Below, piece by piece: positions 36,371 to 46,471 of a DNA stretch of 64,000 nucleotides. The notes under the pieces were generated by a model that saw nothing but the letters and a program-made list of their open reading frames with translations, did no database searches and was not told the DNA's origin. Numbering within the stretch: the stretch's first letter is position 1; every line of letters begins with the position of its first letter. The position numbers and the translations under genes were made by a program. This DNA is from Nitrospira sp. (GTDB lineage Bacteria; Nitrospirota; Nitrospiria; Nitrospirales; Nitrospiraceae), in the NCBI GenBank assembly GCA_018242725.1, contig JAFEBI010000004.1:186001-250000 (forward strand). The letters are read 5' to 3'.

Positions 36371-36928
36371 TTATCCACAGACGCAGTTGAGACATCCATG
36401 TTTACTGCAGACCCCACAGGCGTCTTCAAGAGAGGCCCGCAAGGATCGGCGAGCTCGGTGCAAGCGAACCGTTAGATTGTTCCGGGATATCTTTAGTTCT
36501 CTTGCAACCTGTTCCGGCGATTCGCCACCAAGATCAATGCGCTTGATGAGGTCCGCATAGTGTCCACGGAGGCTTGGAATGAGATCGTGAAGGCAGGCAC
36601 ATGCGGCAGCCTGCACCTCATCCAAAGATGGTTCCTGGAGGATGCCGGAAATGGTCGACTCCTCCAGGAATGCTTGATTGCGGCGAGCCTCAGCTCCCTG
36701 TGCACGATAGTAATCGGCTATCGCATGCCGGAGGATGCGGTAGAACCAGGCAAATACACTTTCCTCATTATGCAAGGAGTGAGCGGAGGCGACTGCTCGG
36801 GCGAAGCTTTGCTGAAGAATATCATCCACGAGGGCTTCTTCTCCGACCCGACGGCGGACAAACTTCCTGAGCGCTGATTCATCCTCCAGAAGGCGTTGAA
36901 TGATGCCGTGTGTCTTAGCCTCCGCCAT
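36371..36928 (-). CDS. ECF sigma factor with Cys-rich C-terminal tail
   Basis: A 185-aa ECF sigma factor. Region 2 is ALRKFVRRRVGEEALVDDILQQSFARAVA to EESVFAWFYRILRHAIADYYR; region 4 is PSLRGHYADLIKRIDLGGESPEQVARELKISRNNLTVRLHRA. The C-terminus ends CGVCSKHGCLNCVCG, a CxxCx4CxxCxC cluster like the metal-sensing tail of CorE-type sigma factors. No anti-sigma gene is adjacent. It lies just upstream of the copper ATPase on the same strand, so copper or another thiophilic metal is the probable signal (inference). Start ATG 36928; GTG 36931 is just upstream. Confidence 0.88.
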   Translation of the reverse strand: MAEAKTHGIIQRLLEDESALRKFVRRRVGEEALVDDILQQSFARAVASAHSLHNEESVFAWFYRILRHAIADYYRAQGAEARRNQAFLEESTISGILQEPSLDEVQAAACACLHDLIPSLRGHYADLIKRIDLGGESPEQVARELKISRNNLTVRLHRARRSLRASLEDACGVCSKHGCLNCVCG

Positions 36929-36946
36929 CACAAATCGTCACCCCCC

Positions 36947-39080: not shown

Positions 39081-39125
39081 GTATCTTCCTGACCGATCAC
39101 ATCACCCTTCTTTTCAGAATAAAGG

Positions 39126-39194
39126 GCGGAGCGAAGGAGGAGGCAGCAACCTTCGCCCCGCGCTTGGTCCGAGCCGGAGGGTCACCTGCTCGGA
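39126..39194 (-). ncRNA. Two-hairpin RNA-like element, copy A (3' end of tonB-HTH)
   Basis: On the minus strand: hairpin 1 (TCCGAGC with GCTCGGA, 39168-39174 / 39188-39194), a 6-nt spacer, then hairpin 2, 12 bp (39126-39137 with 39150-39161, one G-U pair only on this strand), followed by CCCTTTATT. It can act as terminator of the tonB-HTH genes. Copy B upstream of tonB has the same layout with compensated stems. A wider 12-bp inverted repeat (39207-39218, 39331-39342) lies nearby. The remaining stretch 39081-39418 has no supported gene. Confidence 0.55.
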
Positions 39195-39418
39195 ATGAGC
39201 AAACACACAGCCTGTGCTCATCTCCAAAAGCACCGCGTAGAACAACGCACACCCGACGATCAAAGCCTGACGGATTGATCTGCTCGCAGAGTTGAGGGGC
39301 TTCATCATCACGCTCATCTATACGTGACCCAGCACAGGCTGTCTACCGACGCCTGCTCACCGATGCTACACAAATTGTGACGTGCGCCGATCTATTTTCA
39401 CTGCCATGAATACTCAGA

Positions 39419-39655
39419 TCATGAAAACGTTTCGGACGGATCACTCTCATTGCGCTCAATTAAGGCGACGATGGACTCACGAAAGATTCGTAAACTCCCC
39501 TTCCCAATCTTCGTCCCGCGCAGTCGTCCTTCTTCGACCCACCGATAAATCGTCCACCGGCTAACTGAAAGTAATTCAGCTGCTTCTCCGACACGGAGCA
39601 ATGTCTTCTCCAAAACGCCCGTTAACGTTCCGTCTGCTGCATTCGTCAAAGGCAT
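39419..39655 (-). CDS. Small excisionase-type helix-turn-helix protein
   Basis: A 78-aa DNA-binding protein of the excisionase/MerR-like family: LLRVGEAAELLSVSRWTIYRWVEEGRLRGTKIGKGSLRIFRESI. The start at 39655 has AAAGGAGG 6-7 nt upstream. It follows tonB by 21 nt on the same strand and precedes RNA element A. It may regulate tonB or the adjacent cluster; no target site is seen. Confidence 0.85.
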   Translation of the reverse strand: MPLTNAADGTLTGVLEKTLLRVGEAAELLSVSRWTIYRWVEEGRLRGTKIGKGSLRIFRESIVALIERNESDPSETFS

Positions 39656-39676
39656 TGGGCACCTCCTTTCGACGTA

Positions 39677-40573
39677 CTAATTCGCCAAGCTATAGACAAT
39701 CGGAAGACTCACGACAATTTGAGGCTTCCCAATGGCATGCTTCATATGGAGCGGGCAGGCAAGCTTCACGGCTTCGATCGCTGCCTCATCGAGCGCACTG
39801 TACCCGGAACTCTTTTGAACAAACACATCAGCCAGTTGCCCATCCGCTCGAATGATGGCTTTGAGGATAACTTTCCCTTCCTGCCCATTCATGCGGGCAA
39901 TGTTCGGATAGCGCTTGAGCTCCGCCACTCGCCGCCAGAGCGACTCCGCCAACCATCGGTTATCTGTTCTGGCTTCCGTCCCGGTCGCCGCAACAGCATC
40001 CATCGGCTTCTCTTGTGAGATCGGAACTTCGGAAGACATGGCAGAAGCTGATGCAATTGTCGCTGGTTCCGGCTGGATTGGTTGAGACTCAGCCGGTTCT
40101 GATGCGGCGGCAACCGCGACGGGCTCGGATGTCTTTGTTTCTACAACCGGCTCAGTTTTGGGGACCTCGGCTTCAACGACTCGTTGCTCGGTTGGCTCTT
40201 CACGGACCTGAGGGACTTCCATCTGCCGCTCAATGGGTGGAGGCGATGCGACTTGTGGCTCCGGCGGTGGGACCACCTGGGATACCTCCGTCACTCGTTT
40301 AGAGCGTGATTGCGGCACAACCTTTGGTATCGGTTGCGCCGTCGTCACGACGGATTCGACCGGTTCAGGTAGAGGCTGGGATTTCGCCGCTTCAACGAAC
40401 GCGACGTCCCACTGAAACAGGTCCTCCTGCAAGATTGGTTTGACTTGCGCGGCAAAGGCAAACGCCACACCTATGATGACTCCATGCAGAGTCAATGAAA
40501 TAGCCCAAGCGGGAAGAAAAAACTGATTGGTGTTTATGGATGTGACTTCGTCTACTGACAAGCTGCTCTCCAC
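39677..40573 (-). CDS. tonB: TonB energy transducer
   Basis: A protein of about 298 aa: one N-terminal membrane helix (AWAISLTLHGVIIGVAFAFAA), a Pro/Glu/Val-rich periplasmic linker (about residues 60-190), and a C-terminal TonB domain (about 215-298, LWRRVAELKRYPNIARMNGQEGKVILKAII and SGYSALDEAAIEAVKLACPL). TonB delivers energy to outer-membrane receptors. The start is probably GTG 40573 (AGGTG nearby) or TTG 40561 (GGAGAG before it); the ORF to 40729 passes through RNA element B. ExbB/ExbD genes are not in the window. Confidence 0.88.
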   Translation of the reverse strand: MESSLSVDEVTSINTNQFFLPAWAISLTLHGVIIGVAFAFAAQVKPILQEDLFQWDVAFVEAAKSQPLPEPVESVVTTAQPIPKVVPQSRSKRVTEVSQVVPPPEPQVASPPPIERQMEVPQVREEPTEQRVVEAEVPKTEPVVETKTSEPVAVAAASEPAESQPIQPEPATIASASAMSSEVPISQEKPMDAVAATGTEARTDNRWLAESLWRRVAELKRYPNIARMNGQEGKVILKAIIRADGQLADVFVQKSSGYSALDEAAIEAVKLACPLHMKHAIGKPQIVVSLPIVYSLAN

Positions 40574-40594
40574 ATCACCTGCAAGAATTGAAGT

Positions 40595-40662
40595 GCGGGG
40601 CAGAGGCAAGGGACGTCTCCTCTCGCCCCGCGCTGATCCGAGCCGGAGGCAGCCGACTCGGA
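40595..40662 (-). ncRNA. Two-hairpin RNA-like element, copy B (upstream of tonB)
   Basis: Minus strand: hairpin 1 (TCCGAG with CTCGGA, 40637-40642 / 40657-40662), 5-nt spacer, hairpin 2 (40595-40606 with 40619-40631: GCGGGGC with GCCCCGC plus AGAGG with CCTCT, one bulge). It lies between the end of the upstream lipoprotein gene (40780) and the tonB start, so it can serve as terminator or leader regulator. It shares the layout of copy A with changed stem bases that keep pairing. Confidence 0.55.
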
Positions 40663-40779
40663 CAAAACACAATGCTCGGATGGCCCGAAACCTTGTGTAC
40701 CAGTCGATGGGGCACCCATCGGAATGCATGCAAACTTCGATGGATTTCCCAATCCACGACTGAACTAATTGCTCACGTG

Positions 40780-42366
40780 CTAGGAAGTCGCTTGATTATT
40801 CGCAGCCGCTATACCGTCGTAATAAAACATGATGGCACCAGGGTTAACCCCGACCACGAGACTATTGCCAGACATCTGGTTATTAGCATTAAAGAGGGTC
40901 ACCGATCCAGTCACTCCGGCCCCTCCGTTCGATACCAACACCGCACTTGCTTGACCGGATCCCTGTACTAATACATCGAAGTTATGCGCAGCCGCAGGGG
41001 ACAAACCAATTTCGGCTACCAACTGAGGTGCGGCAGGGAAGGTTGATGGGTTGAACACAAAGAGGCGATCCTTCTTCTGCGCAGCCGTTTGAGCATCATT
41101 CCCCGTAGCAGCGTTTGAGACAAGCAGGTACATACGCTGCCCATCCGGCGTAAATTTGAACGTTGAAGGCACGACATCTACAAGATCAGGAAGATTGACA
41201 ATAGTCAGTGGACCTGAGGCTTTGAGATCGATCACCCCAAGTTTGCCGATGATGTGCTGGGCATCGGTAATAAGATCGATTCCACGGAGGAATAGAAACC
41301 GGCCGTTTGGCGTGATGCCATATGCTGTATAGGGAGTACCAAGCAGGCTGAGCCTCCTGGTTATTGCGGCCTTGTTATCGCCTGGCCCCTGCACGATGAG
41401 TTTAGGATCAACCTCAATAATCTCCCCATATCCCGTCTCCTCCCCAGTCTCCTCTACCTCTCGAGCTTGGCTGCTGTAAATCTTTCCGGTCTCCTGCGAC
41501 CAACGAATCCCGTGTGGGTTAGAACCATTGGATGTGAACGGATCGGTGAGAGCTTTGGAGCTTTCGTCATTGCAGGCTGCTCCTGCAGGTTTGAGCCCAT
41601 TCTGGCCAACAGCTGTGCACAGATCAAGCCTGGCAACCATTTGCCGATACGTCGACGACAACTTATTGTTATCGAGAAATGCCATCTGGCCACCCTTTGC
41701 ATTCGTTATCACCGCATACGTTGGAATAGCGGAATCGGTTGCAGTAGGGCCGGAGAACGCCGTAACACCATGCCCAGCTGCAAGCGTGCACGTGGTACCG
41801 GCCACCTTGGGAGGATTTCCACCTGAACCCAGATGAGAATTGTGTAGGACCGTGACAGACCCGCCGACAGCACAACCGCTATCGTTTCCGTTCGTCGCAT
41901 CACCATCGTTCATCGACCAGATGACTTCTCCGTCTGTTCGATCTCGATAAATATGCACGGGACGAGTCCTTGTCGGAAGATTGGCTTCATGAATTGGCGC
42001 GGCTCCGCTCAGGGGATCGATCGTGGCTACTTCCCCCCCCGCTGTGAGATTCATAAAGACCCAACCACCACTGGACACCTGCATATCTCCCAGTGCATTG
42101 TTCTCGAATTCGCCAGCGGATCCCATTGTCGAAATTAGTTTTAGATTGCCTTGCGTGTCAGCACCAACAATGGACAATGTATTTTGGCTACCAACACCAC
42201 TGTTTTTGACAAAAGCAATCGGCCCCTGCAGCACCGCGCTGCCACCTGAAGTCGGCGACGCATTCGTGGAATCTCCTTGGCTACAGGCTGCAAGCCCGAT
42301 CAGTGCAAGTCCTAACGCGCCTGTTGTGACATACGAAAAACACTTTCGCTTCTTCATCGTTTCCAT
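40780..42366 (-). CDS. Large lipoprotein with beta-propeller-like repeats
   Basis: A protein of about 528 aa with a lipobox (GLALIGLAAC) and a Gly/Asn/Ser-rich body in which strand-like blocks recur: GDMQVSSGGWVFMNLTAGGEVATIDPLSG, THGIRWSQETGKIYSSQ-like NPHGIRW, ITPNGRFLFLRGIDLIT, FTPDGQRMYLLVSN. This is the spacing of a secreted beta-propeller (YVTN-like). Six cysteines may form disulfides. The start at 42366 follows GAGGAAGGA. No family is assigned. It follows the small His/Cys peptide by 79 nt. Confidence 0.7.
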   Translation of the reverse strand: METMKKRKCFSYVTTGALGLALIGLAACSQGDSTNASPTSGGSAVLQGPIAFVKNSGVGSQNTLSIVGADTQGNLKLISTMGSAGEFENNALGDMQVSSGGWVFMNLTAGGEVATIDPLSGAAPIHEANLPTRTRPVHIYRDRTDGEVIWSMNDGDATNGNDSGCAVGGSVTVLHNSHLGSGGNPPKVAGTTCTLAAGHGVTAFSGPTATDSAIPTYAVITNAKGGQMAFLDNNKLSSTYRQMVARLDLCTAVGQNGLKPAGAACNDESSKALTDPFTSNGSNPHGIRWSQETGKIYSSQAREVEETGEETGYGEIIEVDPKLIVQGPGDNKAAITRRLSLLGTPYTAYGITPNGRFLFLRGIDLITDAQHIIGKLGVIDLKASGPLTIVNLPDLVDVVPSTFKFTPDGQRMYLLVSNAATGNDAQTAAQKKDRLFVFNPSTFPAAPQLVAEIGLSPAAAHNFDVLVQGSGQASAVLVSNGGAGVTGSVTLFNANNQMSGNSLVVGVNPGAIMFYYDGIAAANNQATS

Positions 42367-42412
42367 GGAACAGTCCTTCCTCAATTAACGATCGTCTTCT
42401 AAGGTTATTGAC

Positions 42413-42445: not shown

Positions 42446-42790
42446 CTATGCAATTTCAAGAACAGACTGCGGCGGCCCACGGGGTAAAAAATCACTGTCA
42501 ACCGCTGCATCCAGGTATGGACTGTCACCCAGGTTCCAAACCAGACTCACCTGTGTGTCGGTGGAAACTTCTCCCTGTCCATTGCCGCTCTGAACATCGA
42601 GGCCGCCGCAGTGCCAGGCACAATGATTGTGGCTTTGCTGACTGTGCTGTGCTTGTCCCTGTGGACAGTGAGGCATGTTCCATTGCGGCAACAGACTCCC
42701 TTGTGCGATCGACAGAGACCCCGTCAGCCAGAGCACGACCCAGCAGCCGGTCAATGCCCGAGCGATGTATTGTCGTGCCTTCGTCAACAT
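42446..42790 (-). CDS. Small secreted His/Cys peptide, RGPP C-terminus (third copy)
   Basis: A 114-aa exported peptide: signal segment (ALTGCWVVLWLTGSLSIAQG), then HCPQGQAQHSQQSHNHCAWHCGG, with a CAWHC motif (CxWxC) preceded by His residues, and a C-terminus FLPRGPPQSVLEIA. It resembles the peptides at 43992 and 46166 (CxWxC, RGPP). It lies 32 nt after the second barrel gene. The likely role is metal or redox binding in the periplasm (inference). A longer in-frame frame is not used. Confidence 0.7.
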   Translation of the reverse strand: MLTKARQYIARALTGCWVVLWLTGSLSIAQGSLLPQWNMPHCPQGQAQHSQQSHNHCAWHCGGLDVQSGNGQGEVSTDTQVSLVWNLGDSPYLDAAVDSDFLPRGPPQSVLEIA

Positions 42791-42822
42791 GATCGATTCG
42801 ATCGTGCTTTCCCAACCCGCAC

Positions 42823-43991: not shown

Positions 43992-44300
43992 CTATGCGAG
44001 AGGAAGAGGAGGCCCGCGGAAGAGGTAGTGGAAAGAAACTTGGATGCGAATTGGGACATTAGGAGCAATGACCACTTGCTCGAACAGCTGAAGCGTAGAC
44101 TCCAACGACACCGAGGTGGATTCAACCCCCTGTCCTGCCGCACAGAGCCAGGCACAGATCCCGGTCGAATGCGTCCCCGCTTGGTGGTCTGCATGGTGCT
44201 GGGCATGGCTCACACTTGGCGCAGCCATAAACGCGTTCACCAGCACGAGACACACCAATAGCAGCCAGACAAACCAGGATTGTTTCAATCGTGCCAACAT
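43992..44300 (-). CDS. Small secreted His/Cys peptide, RGPP C-terminus (second copy)
   Basis: A 102-aa peptide with a signal segment (WLLLVCLVLVNAFMAAPSVSHA), a His-rich start to the mature part (QHHADHQAGTHSTGICAWLCAAGQ, CxWxC) and a C-terminus LFRGPPLPLA. It starts 10 nt after the thioredoxin-like gene stops. It is closest to the 46166 peptide. Function unknown, probable metal handling. Confidence 0.75.
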   Translation of the reverse strand: MLARLKQSWFVWLLLVCLVLVNAFMAAPSVSHAQHHADHQAGTHSTGICAWLCAAGQGVESTSVSLESTLQLFEQVVIAPNVPIRIQVSFHYLFRGPPLPLA

Positions 44301-46165: not shown

Positions 46166-46471
46166 CTACAGAAAGAGAGAGGGAGGACCGCGGCTGGCGT
46201 AGATGCGAGAGAATTGAGAGATTGTATCCGCAGAATCAAAAATCTGGAGAATCGCAATAGGGCTATGTTCTGCCTGGAACAATACCACCTGGCTATCAAG
46301 CACTGTGCCAGCGGCGCACATCCAAGAACAAAGGAGTGTCCCGTGTGTGGCTGCCTGATGCTGTGCATGATGCCCGGCATGTTCAGCAGCCTGCGCCTGA
46401 GCCAAACCACCGATCGCGAGAACACACAGCACAAGCGTTATAGAAATGATTTTTTTGAACGTCTGGCTCAT
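46166..46471 (-). CDS. Small secreted His/Cys peptide, RGPP C-terminus (first copy)
   Basis: A 101-aa peptide: signal (SITLVLCVLAIGGLAQAQA), then AEHAGHHAQHQAATHGTLLCSWMCAAG (His cluster and CxWxC) and a C-terminus ASRGPPSLFL. It precedes barrel copy 1. Together with the two other peptides it makes a paralogous family within 4 kb. A metal-binding or CuI-chelating role is inferred from the His and Cys residues. Confidence 0.75.
   Translation of the reverse strand: MSQTFKKIISITLVLCVLAIGGLAQAQAAEHAGHHAQHQAATHGTLLCSWMCAAGTVLDSQVVLFQAEHSPIAILQIFDSADTISQFSRIYASRGPPSLFL

Follow-up and report, generated by a model that had tools for sequence, protein, structure and literature searches.

A covarying two-hairpin RNA family with anti-Shine-Dalgarno loop motifs at copper loci of Nitrospiraceae

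The window analysed here, a stretch of 64,000 nt from a Nitrospira sp. genome (assembly GCA_018242725.1, contig JAFEBI010000004.1, positions 186,001 to 250,000), carries on its minus strand a propeller-like protein gene (40780-42384), tonB (39677-40563) and an excisionase-type HTH gene (39419-39655). The HTH product matched HTH_17 (E 6e-13) and NCBIfam excise, and the tonB product matched TonB_C (E 6e-16); the probable TTG start of tonB, near 40563, was deduced from the leader sequence. The propeller-like protein matched no Pfam family, and the gene order was kept in most of the related loci. Two copies of a structured element were found on the same strand. Copy 1 (39118-39196) was located 223 nt downstream of the HTH stop codon, and copy 2 (40587-40664) between the propeller gene and the probable tonB start. 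The initial annotation had placed them after the HTH gene and in the tonB leader, and in this it was correct.

Each copy contained a hairpin 1 with the stem TCCGAG...CTCGGA, joined by a short spacer to a longer hairpin 2 rich in GC, as originally described. In copy 1 the hairpins spanned 39168-39194 and 39126-39161, followed by a U-rich tail (39118-39125). In copy 2 they spanned 40637-40662 and 40595-40631, and the tail, CTTCAAT, was without a proper U-run. The folding energies, -41.2 kcal/mol for copy 1 and -43.8 kcal/mol for copy 2, were far better than expected by chance (z -4.4 and -3.9), and none of 200 dinucleotide shuffles folded as well in either case. The differences in the stems between the copies were compensated, and the G-U pair valid only on the minus strand was found in hairpin 2 of copy 1, being A-C on the plus strand. 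The plus strand gave energies of -41.5 (copy 1) and -43.5 (copy 2), so that energy alone leaves the strand of the element undecided. A simple terminator and promoter scan of the window called no terminator at either copy and no canonical promoter close to them.

BLAST and exact patterns recovered just these two copies in the window genome and underestimated the size of the family, and covariance models were therefore needed. Copies in further genomes of the window's genus were recovered with a degenerate pattern. Model R1, built from 20 copies, scored copy 1 at 89.1 bits (E 1e-13) and copy 2 at 70.7 bits (E 2.3e-10). The covariance model search of the window genome gave these two clear copies and a doubtful third (G000:C11:387944-388022, locus L251; 31 bits, E 0.03), which was degenerate and had no recognisable adjoining small ORF. 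R1 matched in 49 of the 79 genomes of the genus, and in a phylum-wide sample of 295 genomes its matches were confined to the window's family, Nitrospiraceae. Model R2, built from 105 copies, matched in 70 of 175 Nitrospiraceae genomes, some of them fragmented, and in 11 of 22 genera. The matching records carry the title Nitrospira sp. One locus titled uncultured Nitrosospira (L137, CAADGK010000074.1) had the same element positions as a contig of the window's genus (G097:C74), and is probably mislabelled. A pattern scan of GTDB contigs produced many chance matches in other phyla, none of which scored with the covariance model.

The Rfam 15 covariance models gave no relevant match in the window or in eight further loci. 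The structured RNA family of which the two window copies are members is not represented in Rfam 15. A search of the open-licence literature found no description of such an RNA in Nitrospira, which is weak evidence, as open-licence papers alone were covered.

Compensatory changes were counted in an alignment of 91 distinct copies. Standard pairs made up 95.9% of the pair cells, 18 of the 23 pairs changed on both sides, and there were 108 double-change cells against a shuffled mean of 27. This alignment was fitted to the covariance model; hence an independent check was made with a MAFFT alignment of the 24 orthologous copies behind the propeller gene. Here, 15 of 37 predicted pairs showed double changes (36 cells, compared with 12.5 when shuffled), and slid structures scored far below the real structure. 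The MAFFT alignment also revealed a third conserved hairpin 5' of copy 2. This hairpin 0, a long stem just behind the stop codon of the propeller gene (about 40707-40751, minus strand), has 15 pairs, 8 of them with double-sided changes in the 24 orthologues. The initial annotation had called for a covariation search across genomes and held that a lack of further covarying homologues would speak against the element; such homologues were found in dozens of genomes.

Across the family, 124 wobble cells were G-U or U-G and 25 were A-C or C-A, and the RNA was assigned to the minus strand on this ground. The excess of pairs valid on the minus strand only showed that selection acts on an RNA with the orientation of the tonB genes, and not on a DNA palindrome. 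The element is palindromic, multi-copy and sometimes tandem, and in the window a small ORF (described below) is cut off exactly at its boundary, as might be expected of mobile or repeat DNA that had spread at the locus, such as hairpins of REP-like, attC-like or transposon-end type. We regard such an origin as very improbable, as the one-strand G-U excess reflects selection on RNA, the position behind the propeller gene is orthologous in 25 loci with compensatory changes, and the orientation relative to the upstream gene is single (104 of 104). The genome-wide dispersed repeat that the initial annotation had offered as one of three readings was likewise not borne out, with only two clear copies in the window genome and the copies of the family clustered at copper loci.

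These loci encode TonB, a TonB-dependent receptor, TlpA, a barrel protein, a propeller protein and an excisionase-type HTH protein, and they often adjoin genes for CopA, DsbA, an ECF sigma factor and SmbP. They also contain small ORFs resembling the copper-responsive uORFs CutF (CxxxC) and CruR (RAPP). A set of 121 small ORFs was selected by a CxWxC motif and a C-terminal R-x-PP motif. The spacing between the two motifs, which was not itself selected for, was 41 or 42 residues in all 121. Pfam DUF2946, applied to a single ORF of the window, scored 14.8 bits, below its curated cut-off of 23.7. Besides the remnant described below, the window has three CutF/CruR-like small ORFs on the minus strand (43992-44300, about 42446-42801 and 46166-46471), with CAWLC, CAWHC or CSWMC followed by RGPP; in related loci, RGPP small ORFs head the barrel and propeller genes. 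The region upstream of the element had been considered as a part of the RNA, and was dropped on being recognised as the coding end of the small ORF.

The small ORF in front of copy 1 is a 5' remnant (39197-39317, minus strand). Over 42 aa it shares 50% identity with an intact small ORF (E 5e-12, small database), and it breaks off after about 40 codons exactly at the start of copy 1, into which it runs, a deletion end that may be due to chance or to recombination. Its CxWxC and RAPP parts are missing. The promoter-like region was kept in spite of this truncation. A 30-bp promoter- or operator-like motif, TGTAGCATCGGTGAGCAGGCGTCGGTAGAC, at 39341-39370 (minus strand) matched exactly the motif found 5' of uORF-RNA units in many genomes. 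The end of the motif plus one base forms a -35-like box, TAGACA (39340-39345, minus strand), and a -10-like box, TATAGA (39317-39322, minus strand), follows 18 nt after the motif. The upstream part of the motif, beside the -35 box, is operator-like.

The conserved form of this 30-bp motif, TGTAGCATCCGTGAGCANNNGTCGGTAGAC, precedes small-ORF/RNA units and some other genes (for example L101:3848-3877, L102:4016-4045 and L257:3210-3239), and occurs once in the window genome when up to 3 mismatches are allowed. In most motif copies a TATA-like box lies 18 nt from the motif end, and at least 4 of 6 matches to TATAAT were found in 31 of 41 motif copies, compared with 8 in a control window. In loci L101, L103 and L118 the motif precedes the RNA by 77-80 nt and no small ORF intervenes, and in two more loci with weaker motifs the distance to the RNA is 73 nt. 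The retention of the RNA where the small ORF was lost favours a function of the RNA itself.

The upstream neighbour of the element was co-oriented in each of the 104 cases. The downstream neighbour was opposed in 17 of 102, and many of the others were further elements or the next small ORF. The element is accordingly part of the unit upstream of it or independent, rather than a leader of the gene that follows. Where a uORF was the nearest upstream feature, 34 of 44 elements started 73-100 nt after its stop (median 87 nt); behind the propeller gene, 25 of 28 started 91-116 nt after the stop (median 102 nt), some of these distances being approximate since the gene calls are mechanical ORFs. Several copies behind the propeller gene had no tonB downstream. 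The role as a tonB leader implied by the initial annotation was weakened by these copies, and that reading was dropped.

Tandem copies without genes between them were also found, four each in L107 and L111, and two each in L108, L109 and L114. The arrays of L107, L111, L108 and L109 lie behind a small ORF.

CCUCC is the core of the anti-Shine-Dalgarno sequence of 16S rRNA. This motif was present in the hairpin-2 loop of 72 of the 91 distinct copies (shuffled mean 5, maximum 12), and in the inner part of hairpin 1 in 61 (shuffled mean 4); one subtype of the element has a hairpin 1 without it. The tally was restricted to the loops, and not every CCTCC was counted as unpaired: in single-sequence folds CCTCC was mostly unpaired in 60 of 183 occurrences, and many were within stems. 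In the minimum-energy folds, many CCUCC copies were partly paired, chiefly in hairpin 1. The exposed anti-Shine-Dalgarno site is therefore mainly the loop of hairpin 2. Among 25 orthologous copies the loops had mean pairwise identities of 0.83 and 0.71, compared with 0.42 for the linker before the element and 0.36 for the stretch behind it. In the window, strong GGAGG sites are present at the HTH and TlpA genes.

A U-rich 3' end (at least 5 T in 8 nt) was found in 59 of the 91 distinct copies, leaving about a third without it. With the invariable co-oriented gene upstream, the near-constant distances from it and the location of some copies between convergent genes, this might point to a composite intrinsic terminator and 3'-end stabiliser of copper transcription units, in which hairpin 2 and the U-run would terminate the transcript, hairpins 0 and 1 would protect its 3' end, and there would be no role in trans. 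We consider this rather unlikely. Termination does not need conserved loops or a conserved hairpin 1, nor does it account for up to four gene-free tandem copies. The structure was also kept in copies without a U-run, including copy 2 of the window, and the terminator scan had reported neither window copy. The terminator reading of the initial annotation therefore held in part, for the U-rich end, and left the loops, hairpin 1 and the arrays unexplained.

The protein genes found co-oriented and close downstream of about half of the copies also allow a role in cis. The hairpins might be the expression platform of the CutF/CruR-like uORF, controlling upon copper the read-through to or translation of the next gene, such as those for the HTH protein, metal-binding proteins, the TonB-dependent receptor or TonB. 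The narrow range of distances after the uORF stop agrees with this, as do three dispersed copies in another genus. These start 97-103 nt past a small ORF of this type, and in two cases a small-protein ORF begins 17-28 nt beyond the element. There are precedents in cutF-cutO, in which the genes are separated by a stem-loop with an anti-Shine-Dalgarno sequence (PMC9973294), and in CruR, which is followed by a structured spacer of 162 bp with termination by Rho (PMC9426467). A cis platform is nonetheless unlikely in our estimate, given the opposed downstream neighbours (17 of 102) and the many others that are further RNAs or a new uORF unit. In addition, the gene upstream of the propeller-type element is an ordinary one, the copies showed no conserved alternative pairing, and the RNA was kept where the uORF was lost (the window, L101, L103 and L118).

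The best explanation, which we hold to be on balance probable, is that the element is an anti-Shine-Dalgarno regulatory RNA family of Nitrospiraceae copper loci, roughly 80-130 nt long and ended by a terminator in most copies. It is favoured by the covariation, the strand-specific G-U excess, the CCUCC in the loops, the conservation of the loops, the gene-free arrays, the promoter-like motif found without a uORF, the retention of the RNA beside the truncated small ORF and the U-rich 3' ends. Points against it are the partial pairing of many CCUCC copies, the subtype lacking CCUCC in hairpin 1, the copies that have no U-rich end, the propeller-type's want of a promoter and the co-oriented genes close behind about half of the copies. 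Of the three readings offered by the initial annotation, which were partly supported as a whole, the regulatory RNA was thus the best supported.

Under this explanation, the uORF-type RNA (copy 1) would be transcribed from the conserved promoter, either together with the copper-sensing CutF/CruR-like small ORF or directly without one, and hairpin 2 with the U-rich sequence would terminate the transcript in most copies. The propeller-type (copy 2), whose poorly conserved linker (identity 0.42) contains no separate promoter, would lie within the propeller gene's 3' UTR and either be processed out of it or act where it stands. The CCUCC loops would then pair with the Shine-Dalgarno sequences of target mRNAs, in the first place those of the same copper locus, and block their translation. 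A more tentative extension, to which we give a low probability, is that a copper-sensing nascent peptide heads units that yield the anti-Shine-Dalgarno sRNA in place of a protein, so that ribosome stalling sets the amount of the RNA, and the RNA tunes the translation of copper-uptake genes at the same locus.

Precedents for anti-Shine-Dalgarno loops and for operons of small proteins with sRNAs are known (PMC10746234, PMC10253847). The cuckoo RNAs, or CcsR1-4, of Rhodobacter and alpha-r14, or NfeR1, of Sinorhizobium have an anti-Shine-Dalgarno loop motif of the CCUCC type, variable stems and a 3' terminator, and CcsR1-4 are tandem homologous copies linked to the small-protein gene ccaF1 (PMC10253847, PMC10746234). 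The Nitrospira hairpins resemble them in variable stems and in tandem copies next to a small-protein gene, the last being found in L107, L111, L108 and L109. The CCUCC of their loops, counted here without requiring the full nonamer and partly paired in many folds, may be a further likeness. On the other hand, the Nitrospira element occurs in Nitrospirota and theirs in Alphaproteobacteria; its core is CCUCC and theirs a strict nonamer, CCUCCUCCC; it consists of two hairpins of other sequence; and its partner is a copper-type uORF in place of DUF1127. No Rfam match to the described cuckoo, CcsR or alpha-r14 members was obtained in the window and the eight further loci. The element would most likely work like the cuckoo, CcsR1-4 and NfeR1 RNAs, yet it has no relative in Rfam and the tests made did not place it among them.

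CutF of Rhodobacter capsulatus, which is small and exported, carries CxxxC and has a C-terminus rich in proline, and an anti-Shine-Dalgarno stem-loop lies before cutO (PMC9973294). The Nitrospira element likewise has a similar small ORF upstream and an anti-Shine-Dalgarno stem-loop downstream. It differs in having two hairpins with the anti-Shine-Dalgarno sequence in the loops, and in occurring also in arrays, after an ordinary gene and where no gene follows. The CruR (DUF2946) uORF of Bordetella, with a Cys motif and a C-terminal RAPP at fixed spacing, heads copper operons with TonB-dependent receptors; its regulation involves Rho, and no such RNA element was described there (PMC9426467). The Nitrospira small ORFs share the Cys motif and the C-terminal RAPP or RGPP at fixed spacing. 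They differ in having CxWxC instead of CXXC, a spacing of 41-42 residues as counted here, and a DUF2946 score below threshold. Like intrinsic terminators, about two thirds of the copies have a GC-rich hairpin followed by a U-rich sequence; unlike them, the element adds a conserved hairpin 1, conserved loops, a conserved spacer and tandem copies.

A covarying RNA family confined to Nitrospira copper loci and tied to putative copper-sensing small ORFs offers a concrete way into copper regulation in these bacteria that can be put to the test. Nitrospira rank among the major oxidisers of nitrite and ammonia, and to our knowledge regulatory RNAs have been little described in Nitrospirota. If the proposed function is true, this would be a second, apparently independent lineage with the anti-Shine-Dalgarno hairpin-loop design of the alphaproteobacterial cuckoo RNAs.

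Two further observations concern the neighbours of the element. The window encodes an ECF sigma factor (36371-36931, minus strand) whose C-terminal tail, CSKHGCLNCVCG, is rich in Cys, which suggests a likeness to the copper-responsive CorE-type sigma factors. SmbP-like small metal-binding proteins are encoded directly downstream of some elements (L087:16355-16858 and L255:4091-4384), that of L087 matching PF16785 above the cut-off, and provide a further link to copper.
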